This document shows positions 10,064 through 14,370 of a DNA stretch of 64,000 nucleotides, piece by piece. Location: contig JAFRER010000021.1 in the NCBI GenBank assembly GCA_017434755.1, positions 217,375-281,374 of the forward strand, read 5' to 3'. The notes beneath the pieces were generated by a model. That model was not told the origin of the DNA and searched no databases. It was given only the letters and a program-made list of their open reading frames with translations. The translations under genes and the position numbers were made by a program. This DNA comes from Oscillospiraceae bacterium. GTDB lineage: Bacteria; Bacillota; Clostridia; Oscillospirales; Oscillospiraceae. Every line of letters begins with the position of its first letter. The first letter of the stretch is position 1.

Positions 10064-11035
10064 TCATCCCTGATATTTTCCGCCGGAAAAGCAGCGGTCC
10101 GGATCGAACTTCCCGCTTGAGAAAAGCTCGCTGACCGCGGAGCGGTACAGGTTCAGCCGCGTGGTCTTGTTGAGACGCTTGTACAGAACTCCTGCATCCG
10201 TGAACTTGTGGATCATGTAGTACCAAAGCTCCTTCATGTGGGAAAGGGCATGCTCCGGAGCCAGCCCCTTGCCGAGAAGCGCATCGAGCAGAGCGTCATG
10301 GAACTGCCGCAGTTCCTCTGCACGGAGGTTTTCTCCTCCGCGCAGCGTCCGGATCAGGGCAGGGTCGGCTATCACACCGCGGCCGACCATCACGTTCTCG
10401 ATGCCGGGAACTCTTTCCCTGAGGATATCCAGATCCTTTTTTGAGAAGATGTTCCCGTTGTAGCAGACCGGGAACGGGAAACGCCCAAACGCCGCAGCAA
10501 AACCGTCAAGGTCAGGGGCGCTGTCATAAAAACCGTCTCTGGAGCGGGCATGGATGATGAGCTCTTTCAGCGGATACTTCGCATAGATCCCGGCTATTTT
10601 CGCAAACTCCGCGGTATCCGATACGCCCATCCGGGTCTTGATGCTGATTGCGATATCCGTCTTTGAGAAGATCCGGCCGAGAAACGAGTTCAGTTCTTTC
10701 AGATCTGTGAGCATTCCCGCGCCCTTGTGCTTTGCAAAGACCGTTCCGGAAGGGCAGCCGATGTTGAGATCCACCTCGTTATATCCCAGATCCCTGAGCT
10801 TTTCCGCCGTCAGGAGAAAAGGCTCGGGAGCGTTCACCAGAAGCTGGGGGATGAGTTTTACGCCCTCATTGTTATCCGGAAGGAGCTCGCGCAGGTATTT
10901 CTCCCTGAAGTTGCCTTTCGTGTCCGGTGCTATGAACGGAGTGAAATACGCGTCCGCGCCGGGAAACATCCTGTTGTGGAGCCTCCGGTATTCACAGAAA
11001 GTTATGCCCTCCAGCGGGGCAATGAAGATCCTCAT
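10064..11035 (-). CDS. dus: tRNA-dihydrouridine synthase
   Basis: FMN enzyme that reduces uridines in tRNA to dihydrouridine. The 323-residue protein has the TIM-barrel landmarks of the family: APLEGIT at the N-terminus, EVDLNIGCPSGTVFAKHKGAGML with the catalytic-type cysteine in GCPS, ISIKTRMGV, LIIHARSR, CYNGNIFSKKD and MVGRGVIADP for phosphate binding. The ATG at 11035 is 4 bp after the SLOG-TM gene stop; an upstream ATG at 11059 would overlap that gene. It is therefore the last gene of the HD-RyR/SLOG transcript, although its role is probably housekeeping. Confidence 0.93.
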   Translation of the reverse strand: MRIFIAPLEGITFCEYRRLHNRMFPGADAYFTPFIAPDTKGNFREKYLRELLPDNNEGVKLIPQLLVNAPEPFLLTAEKLRDLGYNEVDLNIGCPSGTVFAKHKGAGMLTDLKELNSFLGRIFSKTDIAISIKTRMGVSDTAEFAKIAGIYAKYPLKELIIHARSRDGFYDSAPDLDGFAAAFGRFPFPVCYNGNIFSKKDLDILRERVPGIENVMVGRGVIADPALIRTLRGGENLRAEELRQFHDALLDALLGKGLAPEHALSHMKELWYYMIHKFTDAGVLYKRLNKTTRLNLYRSAVSELFSSGKFDPDRCFSGGKYQG

Positions 11036-11039
11036 CTCT

Positions 11040-12590
11040 TCAGCCGATGTCCAGATCAAAGCCCGGACTGTCCTCTATCCTGTAAGAATACCAGTCACTG
11101 TTCTCACTCAGTTCCTCCCGGACGATATCCGCAAGGAGCTCCTCGGTCTGCCCGTATCTGTCCAGCTTCTCAAGGGCCCTGTTGTAGAATCTCTCCATTT
11201 TTTCGTGGTCGCTGTTCTGCCTCGTGAGAGAGAGCTTGCCGTAGTATCCGGAGATGAAAAGCGTGCCCGCAGAAACAGTGCCAAGCACGATCTTTACGAT
11301 CGTCCTCACGAGTTCCACTTCGGGAACGGCACCCCGGATCAGGAGAATCTCATAGACGAGAGCGAAAACATATGTGACGATGCTCATCAAAGTGGTGCAG
11401 GCAAGCACATTCCCGCTGAACTTTTCTCTTTTGCCGGACTTTTTCTTCGCCGCCGCATGATAATCCCGCTGCGCCTGTATCCAGCATTCCCGGATATCCT
11501 CCTTTCCCCCGCCTTGCGGAACGGCGGATAAGGCGGCGACGGCGTCCGTGATCCACGGCATTTCCGTCTGGAGGGTCCAGCTCATGAGAAACTCCGGTCT
11601 CACGGAACTGCCCGCTAGCTGCAGATAGGACCGTATACGCTCCGTCTCCGCAAGCACCCTATACTCCACATATCTGTTATGGAAGCGGCCCCTGCTGCTT
11701 CTTTTGCTGAAAAGGAAGGCCATCACCAGCATGATCCCGCAGAAAAAGAGCATCCAGTGCAGCTCCGCCTCGTCATACATAAGGAAGGAGAAAGAGATTC
11801 CGGTCCCCAGTATTGCCAGCAGCATCAGCAGCCTGCCGACTTTTTCGGAAAACTTTATGCTGAGGCTGTCCGCATTGGACCAGACAGCTCCGAGGACCGG
11901 GTCTGCTGGAGCCGCGTTCTTCTCCGCAAGCGCGTTGAATGCGTCTGTTTTACGGAGAATGCTCTTTGTTTTTTCCGGATCGCCCAGCAGAGCCACCTCG
12001 CCTGCTGTACTTGTTTCATCGTCCTCTCTCGGAGTGTATATGTGGATGACCTCCGTGTTTCCTCTCGGGCGGATGCTTGTGCCGTAGGGCGTCTCGTAAT
12101 CGCCCTCCAGCGCAAACAGCACCGCAGAGGCCGACCCGCAGCCGTTTTCCATTGGCTCGCTTCCGTCCCAGAGAGCAAGCAGGATATGACAGTGGCTGGC
12201 AACATATATGCCGTTCTGCCGGTAATAGTAGTCCCTGTCCTTTTCCTGACACGGTTCCGTTTCAGGCGTGACCATCACGGTTTCAGAGGCCGCCAGAAGC
12301 TCATTGAACTCCTCAAGCGCCTGTCCCGCGAAATCCTTTCGGAATTCATCTGCCTCAAAGGGAAGTGACGCTATAACGGGTATGCCGAGAGCGAGCGCCG
12401 CGCGGGCGCATATGGTGTCTCCCCCCTCGGCGAGCGAGCACAGAAGCTTCACCTGCGAGTGGGGGCAGGCGGCGATTATATCGGAGAGCTGTCTGCGCAC
12501 GATGCCTTCCAGCAGCTCCGTGTCTTTTTTCCGGATGTTCCTGTGACCGGTGACGCCGACTATCACAGGGATCTTTCCTTCATTTGTCAT
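11040..12590 (-). CDS. SLOG-domain protein with C-terminal transmembrane (SLATT-like) region
   Basis: 516 residues, probably a membrane effector or sensor. Residues 6-160 look like a SLOG (Rossmann-like, nucleotide-binding) domain: VIVGVTGHRNI, KLLCSLAEGGDTICARAAL, GIPVIASLPF and HILLALWDG. Four hydrophobic segments follow at about 251-272, 277-295, 393-417 and 428-449, arranged as two hairpins around a cytoplasmic helical part. The tail (about 460-505) contains ENSDWYSYR, recalling the ENGDW motif of SLATT/DUF4231-type SLOG-associated TM domains. The start overlaps the upstream HD-RyR gene by 11 bp, so the two are translationally linked. In the nucleotide-signalling network described by Burroughs, Aravind and colleagues, SLOG proteins sense or make nucleotides and TM partners act as pore-like effectors; the assignment here is inferred. 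Confidence 0.75.
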   Translation of the reverse strand: MTNEGKIPVIVGVTGHRNIRKKDTELLEGIVRRQLSDIIAACPHSQVKLLCSLAEGGDTICARAALALGIPVIASLPFEADEFRKDFAGQALEEFNELLAASETVMVTPETEPCQEKDRDYYYRQNGIYVASHCHILLALWDGSEPMENGCGSASAVLFALEGDYETPYGTSIRPRGNTEVIHIYTPREDDETSTAGEVALLGDPEKTKSILRKTDAFNALAEKNAAPADPVLGAVWSNADSLSIKFSEKVGRLLMLLAILGTGISFSFLMYDEAELHWMLFFCGIMLVMAFLFSKRSSRGRFHNRYVEYRVLAETERIRSYLQLAGSSVRPEFLMSWTLQTEMPWITDAVAALSAVPQGGGKEDIRECWIQAQRDYHAAAKKKSGKREKFSGNVLACTTLMSIVTYVFALVYEILLIRGAVPEVELVRTIVKIVLGTVSAGTLFISGYYGKLSLTRQNSDHEKMERFYNRALEKLDRYGQTEELLADIVREELSENSDWYSYRIEDSPGFDLDIG

Positions 12591-14301
12591 ATACTGCCAT
12601 CCCGATCATTTCCGCGAGCGCCGGTATGCTCCTGACGCTGTCTCTGTCATTTTCCTTTACATCTTCGCTCAGCCGGTAGAACGGCACAAGGTACGGCGAT
12701 TTCTTCGCCTTCGTGTCCTTCTCGCCCAGAGTCCAGCCGGAGGCGGTGCGGGAAGCGATCCATTCCTCGTGCTCCATCTCCGCGAGGATCTCGACGAGGT
12801 CGTCCGGGATCTTCTCCAAAGCGCCCTCGAAGGTGTTTTTCCTCAGGTGCAGCCCTACGCTCTCGAGTTTGTCATAGATATGCCTCGCCTGGCGCAGGTT
12901 GCTGTATTTCATGTCATCCGGAAGATCTGCAAAGGTGAGATACTCCGGCTTGTTCCCGCTCTGTTCCTGCTTTTTGTTATACCGTTCGTGGATCGCGGCA
13001 GCAAGCTGCTCAAGGTCTTCCAGACGGGGCCTCGTTCCGGGCTTTACCGGGCCTTTATAACTCTCCGGCCACGGGTCGATCACTTCGTCGCGTATCTCGA
13101 AGCCTTTCGGGAATATCCCGCCGATATCCAGAAGTTTGCATATGGTCTCTTTCTTTTTCTCGCCGAAGTTCTGAGGAGGTCTTCCCTTTTTTGTGATATA
13201 CACAACGGAGAAGTGCTCTCCGTCCATGTCAAAGACCACCGAATCGGGCCGGATGTCCCCGCGCGATACCCTTCCGTGGGCCTCCCGGTTCCATTCCTGC
13301 AGCTCATCGCACAGGATCAGCAGGAATGCAAGCGGGTCATCGGCGGCCTTCATTGCGCCGAGACTGAAAGGTTCCTTCTGCAGAAAGAGCTTATACCAGT
13401 TGTGGAGCAGGATGGCCGTCGCACTGTTGAGGATGGGCCAGTAGAAATACTCGCTGTTGTACCGGCAGCTTTGGATGAGGAATCCGTACCATTTCAGAAC
13501 GATGAGCGCGGAATAGTAGCCGTGGTCGATCATCCCGGTCTCGCCCATGGAATGGACAAAGCTGTCCAGCTTATCGCGGAGGGCGTCGAGATCGGCCCCG
13601 TGAAGATGATGGATACGGAAAGCCATCAGGTCATGGGCTCTGAGCAGATCCAGTTTTCCGGCCTCATCATAGGCGCTCCTGAATCCCGAAGAGAATTCCT
13701 CACCCGGCAGGACCTTGCTGACGGATCTGAGTTCATCAAAATTATCGAAGCTTATTTTTGCCCTGACTTTGATGTCCTGCCCGTCCGCGTCCGCGATCAT
13801 GCTTATGAATTCGTCCAGCTGGCGGCCGACGATTTCCAGCGGATATCCCACATCGTGAAAAAGTGAGGCGATCCCCCATCTGTAGAAGAACTCCTCGTGC
13901 TTCGTCGAATATGCGTTCCTGTACTCCTTCTCGGGGACCGCAGAATCAAAAGCCTCCCGAAAGGCGGGACACGCGTTATAGATGCACAGCCCCGTGATGA
14001 ACACATTCACCGAATGGACCACATGATCCCTCTGCTTTTCTATGAGAGTAGCGGCGGTGTCCTCATACCGCAGAAGGACATCCACGATATCCGCGAAAGG
14101 ATTGTCCTCTCCGGGCATGCTGATGCGGTAAGCGTCGAAGAACATCCTGTATACATCGAGAGCGTTCTCGCGGTCCTCCTTATTGAGGAACTCCCGCACC
14201 GCACCGCCTATATACGCTTTATAGCTGTGTCCGCGGGAAATATCTTCGAAGATCTCGAGCTCATCAAAAAAAGAATTCACGTACGGAAGGAAGTTGCTCA
14301 T
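12580..14301 (-). CDS. HD-domain phosphohydrolase-like protein with C-terminal RyR domain
   Basis: 573 residues from the ATG at 14301, which follows CGGAG at 7 bp; a GTG at 14307 is too close to that site. The HD superfamily residues seem to be H96 (in DHVVHSVNV), H149-D150 (LFHDVGYP) and D332 (LCDELQEWN), so metal-dependent phosphohydrolase activity is plausible. Residues about 507-568 match the bacterial RyR domain: MEHEEWIASRTASGW, then DTKAKKSPYLVPFYRL and KENDRDSVRSIPAL. RyR domains are proposed ligand sensors in nucleotide-centred conflict systems. The gene overlaps the SLOG-TM gene by 11 bp and has its own promoter. I do not know of a characterised protein with exactly this architecture. 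Confidence 0.8.
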   Translation of the reverse strand: MSNFLPYVNSFFDELEIFEDISRGHSYKAYIGGAVREFLNKEDRENALDVYRMFFDAYRISMPGEDNPFADIVDVLLRYEDTAATLIEKQRDHVVHSVNVFITGLCIYNACPAFREAFDSAVPEKEYRNAYSTKHEEFFYRWGIASLFHDVGYPLEIVGRQLDEFISMIADADGQDIKVRAKISFDNFDELRSVSKVLPGEEFSSGFRSAYDEAGKLDLLRAHDLMAFRIHHLHGADLDALRDKLDSFVHSMGETGMIDHGYYSALIVLKWYGFLIQSCRYNSEYFYWPILNSATAILLHNWYKLFLQKEPFSLGAMKAADDPLAFLLILCDELQEWNREAHGRVSRGDIRPDSVVFDMDGEHFSVVYITKKGRPPQNFGEKKKETICKLLDIGGIFPKGFEIRDEVIDPWPESYKGPVKPGTRPRLEDLEQLAAAIHERYNKKQEQSGNKPEYLTFADLPDDMKYSNLRQARHIYDKLESVGLHLRKNTFEGALEKIPDDLVEILAEMEHEEWIASRTASGWTLGEKDTKAKKSPYLVPFYRLSEDVKENDRDSVRSIPALAEMIGMAVYDK

Positions 14302-14370
14302 TTCCACACTCCGTTCTTTTCATTCCGAAGCCTGTATATTACAGGCCGTCGCGGCAGATCTGTTTGGAAA

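Follow-up and report, generated by a model that had tools for sequence, protein, structure and literature searches.

A pair of overlapping genes was analysed in a 64-kb stretch of an Oscillospiraceae bacterium genome (contig JAFRER010000021.1; hereafter the window): gene 1, whose product joins an HD phosphohydrolase-like region to a C-terminal RyR domain (HD-RyR), and gene 2, whose product joins a SLOG-like head to transmembrane (TM) segments (SLOG-TM). Relatives of both genes lie close to genes for TIR domains or for the TIR-like family DUF4062, and we put the probability that both proteins are effector arms of ADP-ribose (ADPR)-type immune signalling at roughly one half. In the proposed mechanism, TIR or DUF4062 NADases would make ADPR or a cyclic ADPR (cADPR) isomer, the C-terminal RyR tandem of gene 1 would bind this signal and gate the metal-dependent HD phosphohydrolase, and gene 2 would form a second, membrane arm, in which the SLOG-like head would bind a nucleotide of this kind and the SLATT-like TM pairs would damage the membrane. 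The putative signal maker is encoded next door in most relatives; for the window pair it would act in trans.

The association with TIR or DUF4062 genes in relatives carries this reading. A TIR_2 or DUF4062 match was found within 10 kb of the HD-type gene in 18 of 26 genomes, seven of them from the same genus as the window, whereas uniform placement, which these chance figures assume, predicts 0.75 genomes, and the highest of 200,000 simulations reached 7. After collapsing the genomes into 14 lineage groups, nine had TIR/DUF4062 compared with 0.46 expected, both the adjacencies and the groups having been assigned by hand, without a tree. One genome whose copy ends at a contig edge (G005) was counted as a miss among the 26 and dropped from the lineage groups. 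The original prediction, made from the letters of the window alone, had proposed a two-gene nucleotide-signalling or defence system and had overlooked this recurrent partner.

The partners vary in architecture. In two loci (L046 and L047) a TIR-LRR gene (Pfam) begins just before the HD gene ends, with 4 bp shared when the stop codon is counted, and in L038 a TIR gene lies beside HD-RyR. DUF4062-NTPase genes stand directly upstream of HD-RyR in four loci, encoding a DUF4062-AAA-WD40 protein in three (L032, L033 and L035) and DUF4062-NACHT-TPR in the fourth (L034), while a DUF4062 gene is located downstream of the HD gene in L045. Three relatives that match only the HD half also have TIR neighbours, namely a TIR plus a ThsB-type TIR in L042 and L043, and a divergent TIR gene in L044. 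An order-wide draw added three genomes with the HD gene that had not been used before, and TIR was found beside it in all three: G700, G591 (a TIR-TPR on the opposite strand plus another RyR gene) and G574 (a fragmented TIR, recognised by eye through its resemblance to L118). L118 comes from a contig recorded as phage, where the HD gene and a 703-aa TIR gene share 8 bp and a Phage_Mu_F gene lies close; the HD copy of G574 is also near a Phage_Mu_F gene. TIR or DUF4062 genes were likewise present near the three SLOG-TM relatives fetched from outside the genus: a 543-aa SLOG-TM protein gene overlaps TIR-WD40 in L085, and the gene orders are TrkA_N-RyR, SLOG-TM, TIR-NACHT in L056 and DUF4062-NTPase-TPR, TrkA_N-RyR, SLOG-TM in L057.

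Such arrangements recall Thoeris, in which, in the available part of one account, a signal-making TIR is paired with a sensor-effector and a TM-macro ThsA serves as both sensor and membrane effector (PMC11204291). The likeness lies in a TIR-made ADPR-type signal being read by a sensor fused to an effector (ThsB TIR; ThsA SIR2-SLOG or TM-macro) and, in relatives, in a TIR gene adjoining or overlapping HD-RyR or SLOG-TM; here, however, the sensor would be RyR and the effector HD, SLOG is fused to TM segments and not to SIR2, and the window pair has no adjacent TIR. Where a TIR gene has a single HD-RyR partner, Thoeris logic makes HD-RyR the likely effector and RyR its switch. In the sections of the paper available, the DUF4062 family is described as comprising TIR-like NADases, one of which, Swarozyc, acts in phage defence (PMC13174449). 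The DUF4062 genes upstream or downstream of the HD genes described above resemble that setting, but none was found in the ten neighbours scanned in the window (no DUF4062 search of the window's own genome was made), and the terms RyR, SLOG and 'HD domain' occur 0 times in the main text of that paper. An HD enzyme can itself be an anti-phage effector, as described in the accessible portion of the report on Clover, which has the HD dNTPase CloA with the NTase CloB (PMC12265719). Clover is similar in using a nucleotide-controlled HD phosphohydrolase as immune effector; CloA, in contrast, combines its HD domain with a helical bundle and is partnered by an NTase, and that portion mentions no RyR, TIR or SLOG.

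The C-terminal RyR domain of gene 1 is real, both by profile and by fold, as had been predicted: PF02026 matched with 50.3 bits vs a curated cut-off of 27.4 (E = 2.9e-13), and the region has a Repeat12-like fold. PF02026 was matched at E <= 1 in 17 of the 22 HD-family members, and three members lack this region altogether. In the HD half, the metal ligands H96, H149 and D150 are invariant in all 22 members (gene 1 included) and D332 is kept in 21; these residues stand at the positions given in the original prediction, from whose list H260 and H300, likewise invariant, were absent. The resulting H-HD-H-H-D arrangement presumably resembles sites of the HD-GYP/PgpH type. The Pfam HD profile had no match in gene 1, which is thus not a family member by profile cut-off, and relatives gave sub-threshold matches only (3 of 22 members, best E = 0.019; L060, 19.6 bits vs 22). 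A weak resemblance of the HD half to cyclic nucleotide phosphodiesterases was observed, the VIA-align rows for these enzymes being weak for a helical model; dNTPase or HD-GYP structures were absent among the best 50 VIA-align rows, which excludes nothing. Gene 1 is present in a single copy in its own genome, and an alternative GTG start at 14307 would give 575 aa.

Phage RyR domains were described in a 2026 preprint (RyDEP) as binding 2'/3'cADPR and in one case cleaving it, with the glycosidase using H75 and D117, and the same preprint relates that cADPR is implicated in animal RyR function (PMC13232231). Gene 1 has PF02026 in common with RyDEP, and the equivalents of the pocket histidine, tryptophan and aspartate (H75=H511, W78=W514, D117=D552, inferred by spacing through an alignment of animal Repeat12 and not of RyDEP itself) are kept in 19 of 19 members. 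The phage proteins, which are glycosidases and sponges, differ in acting in phage counter-defence, whereas gene 1 is bacterial, is fused to HD and has a serine, S535, at the position of the phosphate-coordinating H100, which is occupied by S in 11, T in 4, R in 3 and H in 1 of the 19 members. The words SLOG, TrkA, phosphohydrolase and fused are each unmentioned in the preprint text (PMC13232231).

The same observations would fit an off-switch, in which ADPR or cADPR isomers are caught by the RyR tandem and broken down at the HD (or RyR) site, with gene 1 thereby ending or limiting the signal that opens gene 2. The conservation of H511 and D552, the inferred equivalents of the residues with which RyDEP cuts 2'/3'cADPR, speaks for it, as does the weak likeness of the HD half to cyclic nucleotide phosphodiesterases. 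We nevertheless regard it as rather unlikely: the remaining phage homologues in that study showed no cleavage, though 6 of 8 bound (PMC13232231), and the TIR plus HD-RyR operons of L038 and L046 show no other effector among the neighbours seen, which would leave such operons with a signal and its terminator but no effector, unless the TIR itself is the killer.

For gene 2, the sequence features make a SLOG-like plus SLATT-like protein likely, though not proven. Its four predicted TM segments were found by hydropathy, the fourth at a lower threshold, and an extra hydropathy peak (residues 60-78) falls within the SLOG-like part. Matches to YAcAr (E = 0.0083, 16.4 bits vs a cut-off of 28.2) and DUF4231 (18.1 bits vs 24.7) were sub-threshold, and SLATT_3 matched with E = 0.045; thus, of the profile checks proposed in the original prediction, RyR lies above its cut-off and SLOG and SLATT/DUF4231 lie below theirs. 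Across the family, the SLOG-like head with a 2TM effector part is consistent: at E <= 1, DUF4231 was matched by all ten members (best 7e-5), YAcAr by five, and SLATT_1 and SLATT_3 by one member each. Residues H16, R17, A54, G56, D58, P77, W141-D142-G143 and G152 are kept in 10 of 10 members, and the glycine-rich motifs of the head may be nucleotide-site motifs of the SLOG type. Burroughs et al. (2015) reportedly described SLOG-SLATT/SMODS nucleotide-centred conflict systems. Gene 2 resembles these in its SLOG-like head, its 2TM SLATT-like segments and its nucleotide-conflict setting, but it has two TM pairs and sub-threshold matches, and its own genome has no SMODS CD-NTase match (0 at E <= 0.001), the enzyme by which CBASS was sought. 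SLATT is predicted, in the part of one source that was available, to be a membrane effector regulated by ADPR derivatives, and has been noted there next to phage TIR genes (PMC9503650). As a separate observation, proteins of about 930 aa that combine a gene-2-like SLOG head with AAA, without TM segments, are encoded in L086:9423-12206 and L089:3415-6216.

A scan of bacterial and archaeal genomes for HD-RyR yielded 14 loci, of which eleven (L031-L041) match gene 1 over its entire or almost its entire length and three (L042-L044) over the HD half only; the record titles include Oscillospiraceae, Syntrophomonas, Clostridiales, Herbinix, Actinomycetota, Chloroflexi, Brevefilum, Omnitrophica and Methanobrevibacter. 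In a draw from the phylum (own genome included), any gene 1 match was found in 14 of 398 genomes, with three others full-length, and gene 2 matches in eight, near the whole length in G242 and over the SLOG-like head in the others, two of which (G153 and G265) nonetheless possess TM segments. The same pair was found in L031 (Oscillospiraceae), in full synteny with the window (aldo/keto reductase, Dus, HMGL and GntR); since 75% and 74% protein identity is kept there, the 573- and 516-aa frames of genes 1 and 2 are not due to chance. The two open reading frames and their 11-bp overlap are as originally described, and the overlap is consistent with a single transcript.

The expectation that homologues would occur as a conserved pair did not hold: SLOG-TM adjoins a full-length HD-RyR in 1 of 14 genomes, namely the closest, L031, and is not beside it in the other 13, the contigs of L032 and L038 ending too early to tell. 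A strictly conserved HD-RyR/SLOG-TM pair was accordingly rejected, as the two were found together only in this sister locus and, loosely, in a TIR cluster of the genus. HD-type matches were detected in 9 of 36 same-genus genomes, eight as open frames of 684-790 aa with 30-34% identity and the ninth with 57% identity, interrupted by a contig edge. SLOG-TM was present in 7 of these 9 genomes vs 0 of 27 without an HD-like paralogue (Fisher 4.3e-6, not corrected for kinship, which makes the counts non-independent), no more than about 12 kb from the HD gene on the same contig in G004, G010, G015 and G033 and on a different contig in G017, G026 and G031; G030 had no SLOG-TM match. The SLOG-TM homologue of G004 (L064) has one internal TAA, possibly marking a pseudogene or an assembly error. 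The same-genus cluster also contains kinase-LRR, TIR and LRR genes; in L054, L055 and L051 it comprises HTH, Ser/Thr kinase-LRR, TIR-LRR, HD-RyR-like and SLOG-TM genes together with a TIR-like TM gene without Pfam match and large one-TM LRR proteins, a larger signalling system for which no name was found.

The proposed nucleotide-conflict setting was thus recovered in relatives, while the window pair lies in no evident defence island, as no TIR_2 match was found in the window and the neighbours are mostly housekeeping, so a signal reaching it in trans is an assumption. The ten neighbours scanned were aconitase, GntR, HMGL, Dus, aldo/keto reductase, two YitT, MATE, glutamine synthetase III and one without a family; the Dus gene (10064-11059) lies downstream and, if its start is taken as in the reading frame list, shares 20 bp with gene 2. 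In the own genome, 10 TIR_2 matches were obtained, 9 over cut-off, five of them at C10:197280-211723, 17-31 kb from the pair (C10:228414-231675), and its four ThsB_TIR matches are all outside the window. These five are held by large genes (861, 849, 491, 1078 and 1017 aa) of the stretch L097 (C10:195000-213000, outside the window), a gene run that starts with a CxxC-type zinc-ribbon-like beginning.

This neighbourhood, fully syntenic with L031, and the GC content of the two genes (0.54 and 0.56 vs 0.56 for the window) would suit a housekeeping role in nucleotide or membrane physiology, not in defence, with the TIR links of relatives due to shared gene transfer. We consider such a role improbable, given the patchy presence of the HD family (4 of the 394 genomes drawn from the order, the own one among them, besides the same-genus fraction given above), the several unrelated architectures of its TIR/DUF4062 partners, and the occurrence of HD genes both next to a phage Mu F gene and on a contig that carries recombinase and MobA/MobL genes. 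A self-contained signalling system without TIR, in which the SLOG head makes a nucleotide-derived signal that HD-RyR senses or hydrolyses, would agree with the lack of an adjacent TIR at both the window pair and L031 and with the overlapping genes, which suggest joint expression; LOG-type phosphoribohydrolases release bases. This we deem very unlikely, as SLOG-TM relatives elsewhere adjoin TIR or DUF4062 genes.

Several results weigh against the proposed effector arms of ADPR-type signalling. At the window itself, besides the mostly housekeeping neighbours, neither TIR_2 nor ThsB_TIR had a match in the 64 kb, so that the adjacent TIR of Thoeris is missing, and PADLOC-DB 2.0.0 returned 0 families for either protein at E <= 1. 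For gene 2, all SLOG and SLATT profile matches are sub-threshold, the structure model is poor (pLDDT 39, built from two sequences), and the family profile matched no SLOG structure in the PDB. For gene 1, the phosphate-histidine position holds S, T or R in 18 of 19 members, in place of the histidine of RyDEP. Among the relatives, no TIR/DUF4062 was seen near the HD gene in 8 of the 26 genomes, in one of which the gene lies on a tiny contig: the sister L031, with no TIR beside the same pair; G005; G026; L036, where a TrkA_N-RyR gene follows the HD gene in place of TIR; and L037, L039, L040 and L041, with no TIR gene within flanks of up to about 8 kb per side, less at contig ends. Finally, the three HD relatives without RyR (L042-L044) still adjoin TIR genes; the TIR link can therefore exist without RyR, suggesting HD as the core part and RyR as an optional control.

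Coordinates of the features of the pair in the window
Feature	Position	Strand	Basis
Gene 2, SLOG-like head + four TM segments, 516 aa	11040..12590 incl. stop	(-)	ORF (open reading frame); family A2
Second TM pair, residues 400-418 + 428-446	11253..11393	(-)	hydropathy
DUF4231/SLATT-like stretch, residues 240-316, TM pair 254-272 + 277-295	11643..11873	(-)	DUF4231 E 0.0037
SLOG/YAcAr-like domain, ~residues 9-160	12111..12566	(-)	motifs GVTGHR, SLAEGGD, LPFE, LWDG, GCGS; YAcAr sub-threshold
Gene 1/gene 2 overlap, 11 bp	12580..12590	(-)	ORF coordinates
Gene 1, HD-RyR protein, 573 aa	12580..14301 incl. stop	(-)	ORF from ATG at 14301
Repeat12-like tandem RyR region, residues 340-573	12583..13284	(-)	
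PF02026 RyR match, residues 495-559	12625..12819	(-)	pocket residues H511, W514, S535, D552
HD phosphohydrolase-like region, ~residues 93-337	13291..14025	(-)	H96, H149-D150, H260, H300, D332

Comparison with empty sites yielded none: the aldo/keto reductase flank is common across the genus, and the eight other window genes queried were absent from the 16 stretches, each of which extended on the side of the pair for about 9 kb, except for one of 5 kb. In the virus collections, the first scans with either protein gave no relative and the SLOG-TM family profile no match, while the HD family profile matched one contig. An IMG/VR contig (L099:3-9782) carries recombinase, MobA/MobL, HTH (by eye) and a 681-aa HD-RyR-like gene, and is probably a mobile element. 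In L118 and L126, a 774-aa HD gene is followed by TIR (whole in the former, in pieces in the latter) close to Phage_Mu_F, an arrangement like that of prophage-borne defence. Two tandem HD-RyR genes with an extra RyR-like stretch at their ends were observed in Methanobrevibacter (L039:3-5036 and L040:7983-12770), with a kinase-HSP70 protein upstream in L040. RyR was also encountered in other contexts: as a stand-alone 94-aa gene (PF02026 E = 8e-38) on a Priestia plasmid (L117:697-9808), clustered with genes for a TPR-S protein annotated as a cyclase, a Pycsar-type effector, an MBL hydrolase and a TIR protein; behind an AAA/MoxR-like stretch on a Methylobacterium plasmid (L116:3760-6492), with a SIR2-family gene near; and as a stand-alone 95-aa RyR-like gene adjoining a TIR-beta-helix gene (L087:6530-8580).

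The literature search found neither HD-RyR proteins nor this pair described, the survey of Burroughs et al. (2015) lying outside its coverage. With slightly less than even confidence, we propose that HD-RyR proteins may form a hitherto undescribed class of effectors (or signal erasers) akin to ThsA, whose Repeat12 tandem receives ADPR signals made by TIR or DUF4062 proteins. Phage RyR domains reportedly bind and, in one case, cut TIR-made immune signals, and the HD-RyR family would supply the host side; if so, cellular RyR domains would be genuine immune-signal receptors, and Repeat12 of animal calcium channels would appear descended from an ADPR-sensing immune module. Bacterial HD-RyR is a testable candidate receptor, and offers a direct route to asking what Repeat12 senses.

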